From contig CANJXF010000012.1 of assembly GCA_947478865.1 (NCBI GenBank), forward strand, positions 1 to 64,000: a stretch of DNA of 64,000 bases. Reading direction: 5' to 3'. Positions 2,766-64,000 of the stretch are shown in pieces. A program made the position numbers and the translations under genes. The stretch's first letter is position 1, and each line of letters starts with the position of its first letter. The stretch is from Verrucomicrobiales bacterium. Its GTDB lineage: Bacteria > Verrucomicrobiota > Verrucomicrobiia > Limisphaerales > CANJXF01. The notes beneath the pieces were generated by a model, which did not search any database, was not told where the DNA came from, and saw only the letters and a program-made list of their open reading frames with translations.

Positions 2766-4289
2766 ATGCTCGCTAACGATTCAAATTCCAATCAAGCCGC
2801 AAGCGGTGGCGCACGCTATGGTTTTAACTTCGTTCGCTTCGGCCTGATCGGCGCGCTGGTTTTGGCTGTCATGCTCGTGGTTTTTGGTGGATATGTCTGG
2901 TTCTTCTGCCGCATCGAGCCACCTTCCGGCTTTTGTGCCGTACTGGTGCGCAAGGATGGAAAGACCATTCCCGCCAACGACATCATCGCCATTACCGCCG
3001 ATCAAAAAGGAATTCAATTGGAACCGCTGAGCGAAGGTCGCTATTTCTATAACCCAATCAACTGGTCATGGAAAATGGAGCCTTTGACCCAGATCAAAGA
3101 AGGCCAGGTCGGCATCATGGTTCGGCAATTCGGCGCTTCTCCTCCGGCAGGCAAATTTATTGTGCGGATGAAAGAACCAGACGGAACAATGCATCGCGGG
3201 ATTATCGATGAGCCGCTGCGTCCGGGAACCTACCGAATCAATCCAAGCGCTTATCGCGTGGAAAAACGGCCTGCGGTTAAGATTGAGCCCGGCGAAGTCG
3301 GGGTGGTGACCTTGCTCTATGGAAATACTCCAGCGCAACCGAACACCTTTCTCGTCAAAGAGAGCGAGCAAGGCGTTCAGGAAACGCCGCTGCGCCCCGG
3401 AACTTATTATTTAAATCCATATATTCAACGCGTTGATATCGTCGGCGTGCAGAGCCACAAGACGGAATTCGAAATCAGCTTTCTTTCAAAGGACGGATTC
3501 CGTTTTCCAGTGAAAGGCGCAGTCGAATGGGCCGTGGAAGAATTGCGCGCACCGGAAGTGCTGGTGATGATCGGCGACGGCGAAGACATCGTGAACAAAG
3601 TCATTTTGCGCTCGGCGCTTTCCATGAGCCGCGTGCAAGGTTCGAAATATAGTTCCGCCGACGTGATCAGCGGCACGGTTCGCAAATCGTTCCAGGACGA
3701 GTTCAGCAAACACATCGCCTCGGAGTCAGCACGAAAAGGAATACTCGTCAAAGCAGCGTTGATCAGCGAAATCGAGCCTCCCCAAAAAATCGCCGAACCG
3801 ATTCGCGAACGCGAAGTTGCCGTGCAAACGCGAACGAAATATGAGAGGGAAATCGAGCGTGCCATCACCGATGCCAACGTCGCCGAGCAAAAAAAACTAC
3901 AGGATCAGAAGGTGCGAATCGTCAAAGCCGATACCGCTCGCACGAACCAGATCCAGCGGGCAAACAAGGATCAGCAGGTCCAAATCATCGGCGCACAACG
4001 TGATTTGGCGGTCGCCAAAAAAGATTTGGAAACGGCGGAGAAATTGGCCCTCGCCATTGTTTCCACCGGACAGGGCGATGCCGACGTTATTTCCTACACG
4101 CGCAAAGCCGAAGCTGGCGCACTCAAAGCGATCATCACGCCGTTTGGAAGCGGTTCCTCTTACGCACGTTTTTTGTATCTGAACAAAGTTGCGCCGAACA
4201 TTGATTCGATCCTCGCCAACAGCGATGGCCCCCTCGCCGAGCCGTTTCGCGATCTCTCGAAGCCCGAAGTGAAAGGAGGTGCCAAATGA
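2766..4289 (+). CDS. Membrane-anchored SPFH/band 7 protein (first of pair)
   Basis: A 507-residue protein with a short cytoplasmic N-terminus and one strong membrane segment at about residues 25-47. A set of related beta-rich repeats follows, each with the pattern EPGEVGVV or EGQVGIM, then PG(T/R)Y and a (L/I)NP ending. These lead into a prohibitin-like SPFH core (about 225-340) and a long charged coiled coil (about 340-450) rich in Glu, Lys and Gln. This architecture fits flotillin/HflK-like scaffolds that oligomerise on the membrane and organise proteases or lipids. It overlaps the next gene, a paralogue, by four bases (ATGA), so the two are very likely translationally coupled partners. Exact function is unknown. 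Confidence 0.82.
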   Translation: MLANDSNSNQAASGGARYGFNFVRFGLIGALVLAVMLVVFGGYVWFFCRIEPPSGFCAVLVRKDGKTIPANDIIAITADQKGIQLEPLSEGRYFYNPINWSWKMEPLTQIKEGQVGIMVRQFGASPPAGKFIVRMKEPDGTMHRGIIDEPLRPGTYRINPSAYRVEKRPAVKIEPGEVGVVTLLYGNTPAQPNTFLVKESEQGVQETPLRPGTYYLNPYIQRVDIVGVQSHKTEFEISFLSKDGFRFPVKGAVEWAVEELRAPEVLVMIGDGEDIVNKVILRSALSMSRVQGSKYSSADVISGTVRKSFQDEFSKHIASESARKGILVKAALISEIEPPQKIAEPIREREVAVQTRTKYEREIERAITDANVAEQKKLQDQKVRIVKADTARTNQIQRANKDQQVQIIGAQRDLAVAKKDLETAEKLALAIVSTGQGDADVISYTRKAEAGALKAIITPFGSGSSYARFLYLNKVAPNIDSILANSDGPLAEPFRDLSKPEVKGGAK

Positions 4290-5893
4290 AAAAAAGCCCA
4301 CTCGCAGTTTTGACGGCGACCGCAGCGGTTCTGCTTTTCCTTTACCTATTTGTTTATGAAGGCATCTGGGTCTGGATCGTCGAAAACACGGATGTTCCTC
4401 CCAATAAGATGGTGATTCTCGTTGCGAAAACCGGGAAAGCCATGCCCGCCGGACAAATCATCGCCGGCCCCGGAGAAAAGGGGGTGCTGCTTGAACCGCT
4501 GGGAACCGGCCGCCATTTCATCAATCCGTTTCTTTTCGAACGCCAGCTTCGCGAGCAAGTCCTGGTCGGCCCCGGCGAGCTCGGCGTGGTGATCAATAAA
4601 AACGGCACCGATTTGCCACCTGGAGAATTTCTGGCGCAGCCCGGACAACGCGGCATTCAGCGCGAAGTCCTGTTGCCCGGCACCTACAAACTGAATCCGT
4701 ACGCTTACGAAATTCGCACGGTCAAGATGACTGAAATTGAGCCCGGCCACGTCGGCGTCATCGCCGCCCGCTCTGGCAAGGCGACGCAAAATCAATTAGC
4801 TGAACCGGGCGAACGTGGCGTGCAGAAAACCGTGTTGCAACCGGGGCTGTATGTTCTGAACCCAGAAGCGTATTCCGTCGAGAGCATTGAAGTCGGGTTC
4901 AATCAGATCACGATGGCGCACGGCGGAAAACTTCCTGAAACGCAAACCACTGGACAAACAGAGTTGAATCGCGAGAAGAAAGCGCCGTCGGGTTCGCTGA
5001 ACGCCAGTCAAACTCAATCCGGAGTCCCGGTGCTTCCAGCCGTGCGGTTTCCCTCCAGCGACGGGTTTGAAATCACCATCGACGTTACGTTACTCTGGCA
5101 ACTGTTGCCGCAGGATGCGCCCAGCGTGGTTTCGCGCTACGGCAACATTCGGAAAATCGAAGGCAACATTCTGATCCCGCAAATTAATTCTACCGCGCGC
5201 ATCAAAGGCTCCACGTTCGGGGCCGTTAATTTTATTGTCGGCGACAAGCGCGAAGAGTTTCAACGGGCTTTCCAGGAAACGATTGAAACCACATTAAAAG
5301 AGAAAAAACTGCAGGTGGATCTCGCGCTGGTTCAGGACACTTTGGTGCCGGACGACATTTCCGGGCCGATTCAGGATTCGCGCATCGCCGCCGAGTGGAA
5401 CATCACGAACACTGAGAAAACCAAGACCGAAGCCAAGAAAGCGCAACTGGACGAAAGCATGGGCAAGATCGCGCAAATTGAACAGGTCGTTGAATTTGAA
5501 ACGCAACGTTTGGAAGGAAATCTCGTGGCTGAGCAGGAAAAACAAGTAAATCAAATTGGAGCCGAAGCGCGTTTGAAAGTAGCTGAACTCGCGAGCGAAA
5601 CGGCGATTATGCGCGCCAACACGAATCGCAAGATTGGCAGCGCAGAAGCCAAGGTTCTCGAATTGAAAGGCAAAGCCGAAGGCGATGGATACGCGTTGCA
5701 AGTGCAAGCCGCCGGAAGCGCCGCGGATTACAACGCATTGCAATTCGCCAAGCAGTTGCCGGAACGAATCCGTTTATCCTTAATTTACGCTGGTTCCGGC
5801 ACCCTTTGGACCGATTTGGATAAGGCATCGCAACTCGCGCCTTTGGAATTGTTGAAACAAGTGAAGCAAGTCGAACTCGCACCGAAAAAATAG
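4286..5893 (+). CDS. Membrane-anchored SPFH/band 7 protein (second of pair)
   Basis: A 535-residue paralogue of the preceding gene. It has one N-terminal membrane helix (about residues 7-24), three beta-rich repeats with GPGELGVV, EPGHVGVI and similar turns, an SPFH core (about 255-360) and a long coiled-coil stalk (about 370-460). The stalk ends in the Ala/Glu-rich EAKVLELKGKAEGDGYALQ segment typical of prohibitin/stomatin tails. An insertion of about 40 residues with NREKKAPSGSLNASQTQSG is low complexity. The start is the ATG of the ATGA overlap with its partner. The two proteins probably form a hetero-oligomeric membrane assembly. The small membrane gene 1 base downstream is likely part of the same operon. 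Confidence 0.82.
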   Translation: MKKSPLAVLTATAAVLLFLYLFVYEGIWVWIVENTDVPPNKMVILVAKTGKAMPAGQIIAGPGEKGVLLEPLGTGRHFINPFLFERQLREQVLVGPGELGVVINKNGTDLPPGEFLAQPGQRGIQREVLLPGTYKLNPYAYEIRTVKMTEIEPGHVGVIAARSGKATQNQLAEPGERGVQKTVLQPGLYVLNPEAYSVESIEVGFNQITMAHGGKLPETQTTGQTELNREKKAPSGSLNASQTQSGVPVLPAVRFPSSDGFEITIDVTLLWQLLPQDAPSVVSRYGNIRKIEGNILIPQINSTARIKGSTFGAVNFIVGDKREEFQRAFQETIETTLKEKKLQVDLALVQDTLVPDDISGPIQDSRIAAEWNITNTEKTKTEAKKAQLDESMGKIAQIEQVVEFETQRLEGNLVAEQEKQVNQIGAEARLKVAELASETAIMRANTNRKIGSAEAKVLELKGKAEGDGYALQVQAAGSAADYNALQFAKQLPERIRLSLIYAGSGTLWTDLDKASQLAPLELLKQVKQVELAPKK

Positions 5894-58455: not shown

Positions 58456-60132
58456 ATGAATGACGCCGAAGCGAATCCGACGATGCCCGAACTCAATCAA
58501 TGCCCGCAATGCGGCACGGCCCTGAAAAGCGCGGCACTCGGCGGCCTTTGTCCGGCGTGCCTCCTCCAGCAGGGCGCCGCGGCGGACACCGTCACCGATG
58601 CGAAACAAACCCCGTTCCATCCACCGCCGGTGACGGAACTCGCCGCGCTCTTTCCGCAGCTCGAAATTCTCGAGCTGGTTGGCAAAGGAGGCATGGGCGC
58701 GGTTTACAAGGCGCGCCAGAAACAACTGGATCGAATTGTTGCCCTGAAAATTCTTCCGCCCGGCATCGGCGACGACCCCGCATTCGCCGAGCGTTTTACC
58801 CGCGAAGCCAAAGCCTTGGCGAAACTCAATCACCCCAACATCGTCACGCTTTTCGAGTTTGGCAGGGCCGAGCTGCCGCTTGGCCAGGACACACAGCAGG
58901 GCGTCCCCGCCAGCCAGCTTTACTTCTTCCTCATGGAATTTGTGGACGGCGTCAATTTGCGACAACTGTTGCAAACCAGCCGCATCTCCGCCCGCGAAGC
59001 CCTCGCCATCGTTCCGCAAATCTGCGACGCGCTGCAATTCGCCCACGATCACGGCATCGTCCATCGCGACATCAAACCGGAGAATATTTTGATGGACCGG
59101 CGTGGCCGAGTGAAGGTGGCCGATTTCGGGCTGGCGAAGATTGTCGGCAACGACGGCAGGGCGGACCTGCCGGTCAGCCGGGAAGAAGGGGCGGCGCAGC
59201 AGCACCCCCCTACCAGCGAATTGACTGACGCGGGCAAGGTGATGGGCACGCCGAACTACATGGCCCCGGAACAATTCTCGCATCCCGCTGACGTGGATCA
59301 TCGCGCCGATATTTACGCGCTGGGCGTGGTCTTCTACCAAATGCTCACCGGCGAACTGCCCGGCAAACGCCTCGAACCGCCATCGAGCAAGGTTCAAATC
59401 GACGTGCGCCTCGACGAAGTCGTTCTGCGCGCGTTGGAAAAGAAGCCCGAACTCCGCTTCCAGCAAGTCAGCGAAGTGAAGACCTGCGTCGAGACGATTG
59501 CGGGAAAGCCCGATCTGCGTAGCAGCCGGCGTCAGGAGGCTCAAACTGAAGAAATAGAGATCAAAAACCGGAGGCCAGGGACCGGAGATCAACCGCAGAG
59601 CCTAGCGCTCCTCCCTGTGGCGAAATGGGTGGCGGTTTCGCTGGCGGTATTGCTCTTTGCTTGGTTCGTTGCAGGAGCTTACTTCTCCTTCACCCGAAAA
59701 CACTACTCTGCCACCGCCGTCATCGGGCTAGTCAAGCAGCCTGTCAAGGTCACCGCGCCGACCCGGGTTTTTGACGGGGACATTCAATCACTCGTCAAAT
59801 CGCCGCTCGTTCTGGACGTGGTTGTATCAAACCTGAATCTCTCCGCTGTTTATGCCAGGAACATCAAACAACCCAAGTTATCACCAAGCGAAGCACGCCA
59901 ACACCTGGCAAGCCGAGTATTGGTTAGTCAGATTCCCCGAACCACCAGCTATTCTGTAACGGCGGTTGGCGATTCGCCGGAGGAAGCGACGTCCGTCGCG
60001 GGGGCGGTGGCGGAACGATTGGTTTCGGTAACGCGCGACGAGATTCGGTTGCCTGACAATCGCGCGATCGAAGTCAGCGATCAGGTCGCGCTGACCGGTT
60101 GGCTCTTATTCCCGACCTTCGTCATGTCATAA
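58456..60132 (+). CDS. Ser/Thr protein kinase with zinc ribbon and Wzz-like exterior segment (3' truncated)
   Basis: A 558-residue protein. A zinc ribbon (C16-P-Q-C and C32-P-A-C35) precedes a kinase domain (about 72-350) with glycine loop GKGGMGAVY, Lys98, HRDIKPEN (205 catalytic Asp), DFG (223-225) and GTPNYMAPEQ. A membrane helix (391-411) leads to an exterior region with FTRKHYSATAVIGLV that resembles the N- and middle part of Wzz chain-length regulators. The natural end is missing: after AIEVSDQVAL the frame reads out into the opposite strand's DUF1338 gene and stops at 60132. So the C-terminus is probably lost by a joint near 60085-60100. GAGG ribosome site precedes ATG 58456. Confidence 0.85.
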   Translation: MNDAEANPTMPELNQCPQCGTALKSAALGGLCPACLLQQGAAADTVTDAKQTPFHPPPVTELAALFPQLEILELVGKGGMGAVYKARQKQLDRIVALKILPPGIGDDPAFAERFTREAKALAKLNHPNIVTLFEFGRAELPLGQDTQQGVPASQLYFFLMEFVDGVNLRQLLQTSRISAREALAIVPQICDALQFAHDHGIVHRDIKPENILMDRRGRVKVADFGLAKIVGNDGRADLPVSREEGAAQQHPPTSELTDAGKVMGTPNYMAPEQFSHPADVDHRADIYALGVVFYQMLTGELPGKRLEPPSSKVQIDVRLDEVVLRALEKKPELRFQQVSEVKTCVETIAGKPDLRSSRRQEAQTEEIEIKNRRPGTGDQPQSLALLPVAKWVAVSLAVLLFAWFVAGAYFSFTRKHYSATAVIGLVKQPVKVTAPTRVFDGDIQSLVKSPLVLDVVVSNLNLSAVYARNIKQPKLSPSEARQHLASRVLVSQIPRTTSYSVTAVGDSPEEATSVAGAVAERLVSVTRDEIRLPDNRAIEVSDQVALTGWLLFPTFVMS

Positions 60133-60425
60133 AAGTTGTGCGGCTCCATTCCAAACGCCGCGAAGAAACCGGCAATCCATCGATATTCCTCCGGCTTGCC
60201 AATGCGAATCGCGCCATGCCGTTCGCCGCTGGTTTTGTCGAGCTGCGCCTCCGATAGATTGAACCCGGCATACATTTGCGACAGCAGCGCGCAAACGACC
60301 TTGTTGCATTCCTTGTTCACCAGCAGCGACTTGCCGTAGAGCGGAACTTCCTGGCCGAACAGGCGGGATAATTCGGAAAACAACCGGCGCTGCATTTCGA
60401 TCTTGTTGGCGAAAGGCGTGTTCAT
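60081..60425 (-). pseudogene. 5' part of a DUF1338 (2-oxoadipate dioxygenase/decarboxylase-like) gene
   Basis: A 114-residue N-terminal piece. It contains GERHGAIRIGKPEEYRW, AAFGMEPHNFYDMTKVG and KSQPVSAT, matching the first metal-binding region of DUF1338/HglS-type enzymes, in which the downstream AFRP strand and the rest of about 350 further residues would follow. The frame stops at 60081 where the kinase gene's truncated end lies. The enzyme is a non-heme iron protein in lysine or amino-acid degradation in other bacteria. Here it is inactive by truncation. Confidence 0.75.
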
Positions 60426-60522: not shown

Positions 60523-61695
60523 ATGAATTTCCTCATCCAACGCAGCGACCTCCGCGACCTCTACGAAAAAGTGGCGGCGAACCAACGCATCTCCGACGCC
60601 GACGCGCTCCGCCTTTTTGAAACGCGCGATTTGAACGCGCTCGGCGCCATCGCCGACCTTGTTTGCCAGCGAAAAAATGCGAATCGCGCCAGCTACATCA
60701 TCAATCGTTACATCAACTACTCGAACTACTGCATCCTGAGCTGCCAGTTTTGCGCATTCTCGAAGAAGAAGCGCGACGCGGATGGCTTTCAATTCACCGT
60801 TGAGGAAATTGTGCAGAAGGCCCGGGAGGCGTTGGCGCTTGGCATCACGGAATTGCACATCGTAGGCGGGCTGCACCCGTCGCTGCCATTTAGTTATTAC
60901 ACCGACATGTTGCGCGCGTTGAAGAATCTCGATGCTCGCCTACAGCTCAAATGTTTTACCGCGATTGAAATTCTGCACCTCGCATGGATGGCAAAAAAGT
61001 CGGTGCGCGAAACGTTGGTTGAATTGAAAGAGGCCGGCTTGGAATCGCTCACCGGCGGCGGCGCGGAAATTTTTCGCAAAGAAATCCGCTCGCAAATCGC
61101 CAAGGGCAAGGAATCCGCCGAAGAATATCTCGACGTGCATCGCACCTGGCATCAACTCGGCGGACGCAGCACCTGCACGATGCTTTTCGGCCACGTCGAA
61201 TCGCTCGCCGACCGCGTGAATCATTTGAGTTACCTGCGCAATCTCCAGGACGAAACGCGCGGCTTCGTCGGCTTCGTGCCGTTGCCGTATCAGCCCGAGA
61301 ACAACCGCATCGCCGTGGAAAATCCGCCGACCGGTTTCGATTCGCTTCGCACCATTGCGGTGAGCCGGATTTATTTGGACAACTTCGATCACATCACCGC
61401 GTATTGGGTTGGGCTGGGATTGAAACTCGCGCAAGTCGCCTTGAGCTACGGCGCGGACGACATCCACGGCACGATCATCGAAGAAAACATTTTTCGCATG
61501 GCCGGAACCAAAGCGCCGCAACTCCAAACCGAAACCGAAATGGTCAAAGCTATCCGCGAAGCGGGCCGCACACCGGTGCAACGAAATACTTTTTACGAAC
61601 CGATTAAAGTTTGGGAGTCTTTGCAGACGGCCACAGAAGCTGAATCGCCAACGAGTAAATCCAAGATATTGGAAGATAATTTGGCGACGGCGTAA
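60523..61695 (+). CDS. mqnE: Aminodeoxyfutalosine synthase MqnE
   Basis: A 390-residue radical-SAM enzyme of menaquinone synthesis by the futalosine route. It has the radical-SAM cluster C70-I-L-S-C74-Q-F-C77 followed by AFSKK, and ELHIVGGLHPSLPFSYY. Characteristic FTAIEI, GGGAEIF and TSTMLFGH-like (RSTCTMLFGHVES) segments follow, as does the C-terminal DDIHGTIIEENIF. The starting ATG 60523 is preceded by AAGAAGG. It is unlinked by operon to ubiX-mqnP but in the same neighbourhood. Confidence 0.93.
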   Translation: MNFLIQRSDLRDLYEKVAANQRISDADALRLFETRDLNALGAIADLVCQRKNANRASYIINRYINYSNYCILSCQFCAFSKKKRDADGFQFTVEEIVQKAREALALGITELHIVGGLHPSLPFSYYTDMLRALKNLDARLQLKCFTAIEILHLAWMAKKSVRETLVELKEAGLESLTGGGAEIFRKEIRSQIAKGKESAEEYLDVHRTWHQLGGRSTCTMLFGHVESLADRVNHLSYLRNLQDETRGFVGFVPLPYQPENNRIAVENPPTGFDSLRTIAVSRIYLDNFDHITAYWVGLGLKLAQVALSYGADDIHGTIIEENIFRMAGTKAPQLQTETEMVKAIREAGRTPVQRNTFYEPIKVWESLQTATEAESPTSKSKILEDNLATA

Positions 61696-61744
61696 AAACT
61701 CAATCTAACCTCTCGGTTGACAATGGTAACATATAAGGCACTAT

Positions 61745-62077
61745 ATGGACGGGCCGTTTGAAATCCGCGAATATTCCGAAACCGGACGGTCGCCATTCGC
61801 AGAATGGTTTGACGATCTTGATCCAGTAACGGCAGCGCGGGTGGATCGTTACATCCGCCGCTTGGAATCCGGCAATTTCGGTACAGCCAAAGTGTTGCGC
61901 GAGGGCGTGTCGGAATTGCGGTTGGATTTTGGACCGGGCTACCGCGTGTATTTCGGGCGCGACGGAAAAACGCTCATTATTCTGCTGGGCGGCGGGAGCA
62001 AACGACGGCAGGCCTTAGACATCGCAACAGCGATTGCGCGCTGGCAGCGATACCGGCAAGCGAAGAAAGAAAAATGA
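61745..62077 (+). CDS. HigB/RelE-type toxin (phage Gp49-like)
   Basis: A 110-residue basic protein with EYSETGRSPFAEWFDDL, RLESGNFG, LREGVSELRLDFGPGYRVYF and a GGGSKRRQALDIATA end, matching the phage-derived Gp49/HigB toxin family. Members are mRNA interferases acting at the ribosome. The following gene encodes a helix-turn-helix partner. Begins with an ATG at 61745; typical length. Confidence 0.87.
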   Translation: MDGPFEIREYSETGRSPFAEWFDDLDPVTAARVDRYIRRLESGNFGTAKVLREGVSELRLDFGPGYRVYFGRDGKTLIILLGGGSKRRQALDIATAIARWQRYRQAKKEK

Positions 62078-62078
62078 T

Positions 62079-62402
62079 ATGGCTTTGACCTGCGAATATA
62101 AAAAGACAGTTGTGGCCCGCATCCAGCGGGACAAAAAATTTGCGCGCGCGCTTTATGCCGAGGCAATGAACGCTATGCTTGAAGGCGAAACGGAAGAAGG
62201 GCTTTCCATGCTCCGCGATCTCGTCCATGCCGAAATCTCATTCAAGGAACTGGCGCAACAGACCGGCTTGGGCGAAAAAGCGTTGCATCGGATGTTGAGC
62301 CGCCGCGGCAATCCCACCACCCGCAATCTCTTCGCCGTGACAAAAGCGATTTGTGAATGTCTCTCCATCAAGCCACATGTGGCAGTGGGAGCGCATTCGT
62401 GA
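62079..62402 (+). CDS. HigA-like helix-turn-helix antitoxin
   Basis: A 107-residue protein with SFKELAQQTGLGEKALHRML, a lambda-repressor-like helix-turn-helix near residues 58-80, and a C-terminal NLFAVTKAICECLSIKP. It starts one base after the toxin stop, so the pair is a HigBA-type toxin-antitoxin operon (toxin first). The antitoxin would neutralise the toxin and repress the operon. The ATG at 62079 is chosen; an earlier in-frame codon at 62034 lies within the toxin. Confidence 0.83.
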   Translation: MALTCEYKKTVVARIQRDKKFARALYAEAMNAMLEGETEEGLSMLRDLVHAEISFKELAQQTGLGEKALHRMLSRRGNPTTRNLFAVTKAICECLSIKPHVAVGAHS

Positions 62403-62431
62403 AAGACGACATGACAACGGCGTGAAATTGC

Positions 62432-64000
62432 ATGCCAAAAAGCAAGAGCCAGTCGGAGGTTATTGCCAGCTTTCGTAAAGTTCACGAAGGTTATTACGAC
62501 TATTCTCTGGTTAGATATGCAGGTTCGAAATCAAAGGTTGATGTTTTGTGTCCTGTTCACGGTAAGTTTTCAATCACTCCCAATCACCATTGTCGAGGAG
62601 TAGGCTGCCCCGATTGTTGGTACGAAGCTCAACGGACGACAAAAGAAGAATTTATCGCTCGATCAAGACGGCATTTTGGTGACCGGTACGATTACTCGTT
62701 ATTTGATCAACTCCCTCCTTTTGGACAGAAGGTGCAAATACTCTGCCGCACACATCATGAAGTTTTTCATCAAGAGCCACGGAATCACATAAAAGGGCAA
62801 ACCGGATGTCCCAAATGCAAATCAATCAGGCTCGCGGGCACGCGGAATGCAAGAGGCACTATTAAAACTTGCGAAGAATTGTCTTCTTCCTTCGCCAAAC
62901 GCGCCAAGGAAATTCATGGCGACGCATACGATTACAGCGAGTTTCTCTATGTCAACGTGAACACGAAAGGGAAAATTATTTGTTCCTCGCATGGAGAATT
63001 TTCGCAGTCCCCCAGTAATCATTTGAAAACAAACAAGGGGAGCAAGTGCCCAGGTTGTATCCGAGACAAACGAAAGGCGAACACGTTCAGCGAAAAATGT
63101 GAAGCTTTGGGCGTGGATTATTGGCGGGCACTCAAACGACGTGAAGCCGGGCTTTCCGAAGAGAAAGTTTTTGAGAAAGGATATGTTCGGGGTTCTCGGC
63201 TGGTTATTGAGATAACCGTCTTTGGAGTCAAATATCCGAACCTTGAAGAAGCTGTCAGAATTCTGAAGCCACCCGGCACGTGCGCTACAATCCGACGCTG
63301 GATCACAAATGGCATGAAGCCCGAAGAGGCTTTTGAGCGCATTCCCAATCCGGGGTATGCAAACGGCATCATTTACCTGATTACTCACAAGGAGTCTGGA
63401 AAACAATATGTTGGATTGACGATCCAAATGTTAGAACGGCGGTGGCGATACCATATTGAGCAGGCATTGGGTGGGCACATTAAAGGCGCTGAATCTTTAC
63501 ATGCGGCACTCCGAAAATATGGACGCGATGCCTTTGATATTTGTCCAATTGATGAAGGCACAACAAAAAAGGGCCTCGAACAAAAAGAACGAGACTGGAT
63601 CAAGAAGCTCAGCACGCTGACGCCTCACGGATACAACATTTCCCCCGGCGGTGAATGCGGCGGTTCAGGCAGAAAACCGACATTCGTGGATGGAATCCGA
63701 TTTGAAAGCGTAAGGAAGGCAGTTGAATATGTCTCCAAAACCAGATGCATCACCTTAGAGGCTGCTCAAGGGAGAGTTCAGCACAATCGAATTGATGTTA
63801 AGACACCAGCAAAGCCGGGCGAGAGCTTGGTTAAAACGCAGGTTTATAAAACATGGAGCCGTATTGTTCATGGTGTCATTAATCCAAAATCAACGCGTGA
63901 ATATATTCCCGGCGTACGGCTTCACTCTCCTTGGCGAGAATTCGCAACATTTTTCAAAGACGTTGGGCATCCACCAACAAAGGGTATGGCGTTTACTCGA
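62432..64000 (+). CDS. Modular GIY-YIG nuclease with three zinc-ribbon repeats (3' end outside window)
   Basis: A frame open from ATG 62432 to the window edge (523 codons, no stop seen). Residues about 8-65, 72-130 and 146-210 are three copies of a module with (Y)DYS and C-x2-HG-x2-F, ending in GCP-x-C or KCPGC: YYDYSLVRYAG, RYDYSLFDQL, AYDYSEFLYV. This resembles DUF723-type zinc modules. Residues about 311-400 form a GIY-YIG nuclease (GIIYLITHKESGKQYVGLTI, then LEQKERDWIKKL, YNISPGGEC). Near residue 473 is KTWSRIVHGVINPKSTREYI then GVRLHSPWREFATFF, a motif common in phage homing proteins. Base composition is visibly richer in A/T than in nearby genes. Probably a mobile or phage-derived nuclease. 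Confidence 0.8.
   Translation, partial: MPKSKSQSEVIASFRKVHEGYYDYSLVRYAGSKSKVDVLCPVHGKFSITPNHHCRGVGCPDCWYEAQRTTKEEFIARSRRHFGDRYDYSLFDQLPPFGQKVQILCRTHHEVFHQEPRNHIKGQTGCPKCKSIRLAGTRNARGTIKTCEELSSSFAKRAKEIHGDAYDYSEFLYVNVNTKGKIICSSHGEFSQSPSNHLKTNKGSKCPGCIRDKRKANTFSEKCEALGVDYWRALKRREAGLSEEKVFEKGYVRGSRLVIEITVFGVKYPNLEEAVRILKPPGTCATIRRWITNGMKPEEAFERIPNPGYANGIIYLITHKESGKQYVGLTIQMLERRWRYHIEQALGGHIKGAESLHAALRKYGRDAFDICPIDEGTTKKGLEQKERDWIKKLSTLTPHGYNISPGGECGGSGRKPTFVDGIRFESVRKAVEYVSKTRCITLEAAQGRVQHNRIDVKTPAKPGESLVKTQVYKTWSRIVHGVINPKSTREYIPGVRLHSPWREFATFFKDVGHPPTKGMAFTR

Follow-up and report, generated by a model that had tools for sequence, protein, structure and literature searches.

Two independent selfish insertions at a single gene junction, and not an island, best explain the DNA found behind mqnE in the genome analysed here (G000), a reading to which we give a probability of about two in three. 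The first insertion would be that of a toxin–antitoxin (TA) cassette and the second that of a gene for a modular GIY-YIG nuclease.

Organization of the locus

The window, i.e., the whole stretch of DNA that was analysed, comprises the first 64,000 bases of an 80,433-bp contig (C12) of G000. Its relevant features are the following:

60523..61695, +: mqnE, aminofutalosine synthase, 390 aa (TIGR03700, 461 bits, above cut-off)
61717..61744, +: putative TA promoter/operator-like element, TTGACAATGGTAACATATAAGGCACTAT, immediately 5' of the toxin ATG
61745..62077, +: toxin, HI1419 / RelE-ParE-like, 110 aa (TIGR02683; PHROG 3445 'toxin', 5e-25)
62079..62402, +: antitoxin, HI1420-like HTH protein, 107 aa (TIGR02684, 2.4e-6, under cut-off; PHROG 4268 repressor, 1e-7)
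62401..62425, +: what is left of a native mqnE 3' terminus (...DDMTTA-stop), a putative footprint left when the TA inserted (best matched by the end of mqnE in genome G027)
62432..64000 in the window and on to contig position 64153, +: GIY-YIG nuclease gene, 573 aa (profile matches, contig reading)
62432..62626, +: treble-clef module 1 of the nuclease, CPVH...CPDC (DUF723 match, alignment)
62627..62836, +: treble-clef module 2, CRTH...CPKC (DUF4379 match, alignment)
62870..63067, +: treble-clef module 3, CSSH...CPGC (alignment)
63203..63340, +: stretch 5' of the catalytic domain, conserved among homologues, putatively wHTH-like
63362..63658, +: GIY-YIG catalytic domain (Pfam, 5e-11; fold match to the I-TevI catalytic domain)
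63683..63796, +: stretch 3' of the catalytic domain, conserved among homologues, putatively wHTH-like
63827..64000, +: C-terminal tail module, W..F..F..DVG...RIDKSKGFYPDNCAW, running past the window end (weak match to PHROG 8790/3377)

The nuclease ATG (62432) lies 29 bp 3' of the antitoxin stop. The gene is complete: its stop, at 64153, is found 153 bp past the window end and shares bases with the start codon of a threonine-dehydratase-like gene, which begins at 64150. The latter is followed by genes for an M6-type protease-like protein, a MogA-like protein and glutaminyl-tRNA synthetase, and by mqnA; for those among them that the profile scan did not cover, the names were assigned from the sequence itself. 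On the other side of the locus, a 114-aa open frame on the minus strand (60081-60425) matches the N-terminal part only of HGLS (2-oxoadipate dioxygenase) and is probably a truncated gene.

The TA cassette and the 3' end of mqnE

The toxin passes the curated cut-off of TIGR02683 (100 versus 62.85 bits), whereas the antitoxin, of fitting position, size and HTH, stays under that of TIGR02684 (27.7 versus 53.7 bits). The toxin is therefore a member of the family and the pair is termed HI1419/HI1420-like. The preliminary description had announced a TA pair here, which is supported. A PDB sequence search found no relative of the toxin. The TTGACAATGGTAACATATAAGGCACTAT element also precedes the toxin gene at about nine other loci of the same TA subgroup.

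Eight further genomes of the order contain relatives of the toxin, 63-81% identical over the gene. In three of the eight (G154, G014, and G027) the cassette lies directly behind mqnE, as in G000, so that four lineages carry it at the 3' end of this gene, its putative insertion target. In G014 and G027, the antitoxin gene is followed by a copy of the mqnE end, stop codon included, of 168 and 164 bp, respectively. This copy starts 15-21 bp past the last aligned antitoxin base and is 97.6% (G014) and 91% (G027) identical to the intact mqnE end. No such copy is found at about 35 mqnE loci devoid of the TA, and G154 carries the TA at mqnE with no flanking repeat. While long bracketing repeats are clear in G014 and G027, G000 displays only a remnant of about 25 bp: the 25 bp GAAAGACGACATGACAACGGCGTGA at the antitoxin end match an mqnE end, and their stop is in register with that of the gene; the best match is to G027 (P ~0.003-0.005 against random 31-mers of the window). 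The nuclease ATG begins 6 bp past this remnant, which places the nuclease after the former stop of mqnE and before the dehydratase-like gene.

The origin of the copies can be approached by comparing identities within and between genomes. The mqnE-end copies of G014 and G027 are 91-98% identical to the mqnE end of their own genome, versus about 75-80% to mqnE, and at most about 84% to the mqnE ends, of the relatives compared, two members of the G014 family included, and the two TA cassettes are 83% identical to each other. The copies thus look local, and mqnE ends carried along from a donor are disfavored, although gene conversion between the two mqnE ends is a possible way to keep them alike. 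As far as sequences can tell, this fits a spread of TA cassettes in which the target end is copied on the spot. As a separate observation, the mqnE genes of G014 and G027 (L157, L159) contain in-frame, low-complexity, repeat-like inserts at the same place, around residue 138; mqnE matches are broken at residue 132-139 in many other genomes of the order, which suggests that such inserts are widespread there.

The TA could also be old at mqnE and vertically inherited, with no repeated insertion; recombination between the repeats would then have removed it on many occasions. Its presence at the same place in four families, the nearly identical start of the right copy in G014 and G027, and the clean exit offered by the repeats would all be accounted for in this way. 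However, the TA is missing from genomes closely related to G014 and G154, other members of the family lie at unrelated genes, and cassettes are more alike than the genes that host them: 83% versus 76% for mqnE between G014 and G027, and 87% versus 79% for trpA between G287 and G558, where both cassettes measure 652 bp. We consider this scenario unlikely, although it keeps an appreciable chance.

Gene-end copies at related TA loci

Of the TIGR02683 loci of the order, 42 were read, and 40 of these had enough flanking sequence to be counted. We looked for direct repeats (E <= 1e-8) in the 450 bp adjoining the cassette on either side; 487 shifted windows, from the same and neighboring loci, were used as controls. 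Direct repeats flank 14 of the 40 cassettes versus 8 of the 487 shifted windows (Fisher 4e-12). These controls give no more than an approximate null, since TA genes may simply occupy repeat-rich gaps, and it is thus not this raw count but the gene-end cases that carry the argument. Copies of a gene end were found at 8/40 TA loci and at 0/487 control windows, where the repeats are of other kinds (dispersed, internal, or formed by tandem genes). The gene-end cases were called after the data had been seen, on our own judgement of each match, and dispersed intergenic repeats were set apart from gene-end copies by reading each case.

Six of the eight involve 3' ends, i.e., those of mqnE (twice), hisD, trpA (in G287), a gene for an SNF2-type helicase, and a convergent gene; the two others, in two genomes, involve the 5' end of a moaD-like gene. 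The names hisD, trpA, helicase and moaD-like come from reading the sequences, without profile scan. A further trpA case, with a 42-bp copy, was seen in G558, and copies of a guaA end lie near a TA in G017. The length of the gene-end copies goes from 42 to 258 bp. For the HigB pairs of the PF05015 type, in the same order, repeats were found at 7/34 loci, which is not significantly fewer (P = 0.2), though none of them is at a gene end. Two of these pairs (L191 and L210) show direct repeats of 50 and 48 bp, which begin at most 14 bp from the antitoxin stop and where no gene end was recognized. Outside the order, the gene-end pattern is seen at no more than 1 of 15 TIGR02683 loci, a signal that is weak or absent.

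Gene-end copies might alternatively be left by an integrase-type element whose attachment site contains the 3' end of a gene, the integrase having since been lost or acting in trans. The attachment site of e14 at icd carries the gene's 3' end in this manner. Such an origin is favored by the recurrent use of gene 3' ends and by copies that begin at one and the same point of mqnE in two families, as do three TA relatives (L054, L055, and L056) lying directly 3' of a gene named, from its sequence, tyrosine-recombinase-like. On the contrary, no integrase was seen in the repeat-flanked loci that were read, the length of the copies varies as given above, some of them derive from 5' ends, and they are more alike within than between genomes even though the cassettes are shared. 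We hold this origin to be doubtful.

A modular GIY-YIG nuclease of foreign origin

The nuclease matches GIY-YIG (5e-11), DUF4379 and two stretches of DUF723 in Pfam, and three treble-clef-type CxxH...CxxC modules can be recognized by eye at about residues 1-65, 66-135, and 147-212. The modular GIY-YIG nuclease with three zinc modules of the preliminary description is hence recovered; of the modules for which it advised a domain search, DUF723 and GIY-YIG are there, but no search made identified the tail as an AP2 domain. The last ~60 residues of the tail weakly match PHROG phage families described as 'HNH/restriction endonuclease'. In seven aligned sequences, Y315, R337, E386, and N402 of the GIY-YIG active site are invariant; from what is known of the superfamily, we take them to be the catalytic positions, and the domain thus has the Y, R, E and N expected of a homing endonuclease of this class. 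The best PDB fold match of the AlphaFold model is the catalytic domain of I-TevI (TM 0.77 on target, E 5e-4), and a PDB sequence search found no relative of the nuclease. With a mean pLDDT of 72 and a pTM of 0.33, the placement of the domains in this model is unreliable.

The composition of the gene is deviant (GC 46.6%, GC3 44.6%; z = -2.9 and -3.1 against 32 ORFs of the window), whereas the TA genes are average among those of the window. The different base composition announced beforehand therefore holds for the nuclease only.

Among the 293 genomes of the order, the nuclease is present in G000 alone. Its homologue in Phormidesmis priestleyi (L044) is 61% identical over the full length. Full-length homologues with the same module order (three zinc modules, wHTH-like stretches, GIY-YIG, tail) were found in Phormidesmis, Lyngbya, Anabaena, Calothrix, and Tolypothrix, on cyanobacterial plasmids and chromosomes, those of Tolypothrix and Calothrix plasmids being 37-39% identical. 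Since this architecture recurs, the nuclease is not unique, and the earlier impression that its arrangement is not a standard one is not supported. Phage sequences match parts of it in 661 records, none over 80% of its length. The alignment scan of genome contigs gave nine nuclease loci; that of viral contigs gave no match, nor did single-protein scans of genome and viral contigs. Judging from sequence comparison, the nuclease gene is a horizontal acquisition from a distant lineage. Its distribution across distant hosts is patchy (1/293 genomes of the order, a 61% identical homologue in Phormidesmis). The mobile traits suspected at the outset are supported, and so is the foreign composition of the nuclease.

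Among the homologues, the tail module is tandemly repeated in Calothrix (L035/L046) and Anabaena (L047), and a relative on a Cupriavidus necator megaplasmid (L036) is apparently split by ~1.4 kb of other DNA into two parts (1731-2561 and 4001-4810) that cover residues 1-280 and 278-548.

The GIY-YIG protein may instead be a nuclease kept by the host for defence or repair, and not a selfish homing gene. Its open frame is intact, and the GIY-YIG domain gives a weak match to UzuA in PADLOC (2.7e-6). However, it is a singleton of foreign composition in the order, its closest homologues belong to another phylum, the Microcystis copy is broken, and the protein matches homing-endonuclease families, which together make this role improbable.

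An occupied and an empty junction

In G062, the TGA of mqnE is followed by 'ac' and by the ATG of the threonine-dehydratase-like gene, then by mqnA. As the two genes are only 2 bp apart there, the insert of G000 amounts to no more than ~2.4 kb, i.e., the TA and the nuclease. The junction devoid of the nuclease gene is clear but is a single comparison, since the dehydratase-like gene is rare (5/293 genomes of the order). In cyanobacteria, no empty site of the nuclease could be demonstrated, the neighbors in Phormidesmis relatives being not syntenic.

The preliminary description considered the locus as the possible start of an island and advised reading the sequence beyond position 64,000, which located both the end of the nuclease gene and the border of the insert at 64153. 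With housekeeping genes on both flanks and the junction joined in G062, there is therefore no island: where a genomic island would be a multi-gene insert with an integrase or att repeats, we find ~2.4 kb and three genes.

That the TA and the nuclease arrived jointly, whether as a single mobile unit or at the border of some larger island, with the TA stabilizing the element, would agree with their being 29 bp apart on the same strand and both missing from the G062 junction, but this is very improbable, because they differ in composition, the mqnE-end remnant lies between them, the nuclease is missing where the TA adjoins mqnE in G154, G014, and G027, the insert extends no further than 64153, and the contexts of the homologues speak against a unit (no nuclease homologue is accompanied by this TA, and none of the ~30 TA relatives searched by the nuclease).

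Proposed sequence of events

According to the reading with two independent insertions, a HI1419/HI1420-type cassette of ~0.7 kb would have entered the 3' end of mqnE and duplicated the end of its target, leaving mqnE whole and a truncated end copy behind the cassette, of which all but ~25 bp would have been lost in G000. The copy would presumably go back to a long staggered break or to a duplication linked to repair. Recombination between the two copies could excise the cassette cleanly, and the toxin, if active, would select against this loss. The nuclease gene, acquired from a distant lineage, would have come to lie in the gap from this former stop of mqnE to the start codon of the dehydratase-like gene. 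By analogy with free-standing homing endonucleases, the zinc and helix modules of the nuclease may recognize an extended site, and the enzyme may cut the junction in DNA devoid of the gene, the gene then being copied in by repair.

One may go further and see the TA cassettes of this family as recombinase-free mobile units that repeatedly enter the ends of important biosynthetic genes (mqnE, hisD, trpA), duplicate the gene end and are thereby tied to a gene that the host cannot easily lose, the copies being a clean exit penalized by the toxin. We put this generalization forward tentatively and think it rather unlikely to hold as a whole. A readable footprint, an empty site and several different targets in one order make TA movement without transposase testable.

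Comparison with known systems

As in the HI1419/HI1420 family (TIGR02683/TIGR02684), the gene of a RelE/ParE-like toxin comes first and that of a short HTH antitoxin second; unlike in the family, the antitoxin of G000 is below the model cut-off, and the activity of the pair is a prediction.

The cyanobacterial GIY-YIG proteins (Phormidesmis L044, Tolypothrix WP_263420152.1, Calothrix BDA76450.1) share the full-length module order at 37-61% identity. They differ in that, in some of them, the core is preceded by two complete wHTH-like stretches and the tail module occurs several times in tandem, and in that none is adjoined by this TA. With free-standing GIY-YIG homing endonucleases (the I-TevI domain; phage genes of the seg/mob type), the nuclease shares a GIY-YIG core whose key residues are intact and which is flanked on either side by DNA-binding modules, as well as insertion in an intergenic gap. 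Unlike them, it has three N-terminal zinc modules and resides in a bacterial chromosome, and its cleavage and homing are predicted. It illustrates well how phyla can share a free-standing homing-type gene.

Genome comparison has led to the proposal that restriction-modification genes insert with a long and variable target duplication (Nobusato et al. 2000, Gene 259:99, as cited in PMC3031569). Our literature search, which covered few subscription papers, returned no report of such an insertion for TA pairs, only papers citing the restriction-modification work. As in that system, a selfish addiction-type gene pair lies between long direct copies of the target of variable length, clearly so in G014 and G027 and with a remnant of only ~25 bp in G000, and the inserted unit has no recombinase of its own. 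Here, on the other hand, the pair belongs to the type II TA, what is copied is mostly the end of a gene, and several lineages make use of one and the same end (mqnE, trpA). The gene-end copies connect the mobility of TA pairs with the insertions by long target duplication put forward for restriction-modification systems.
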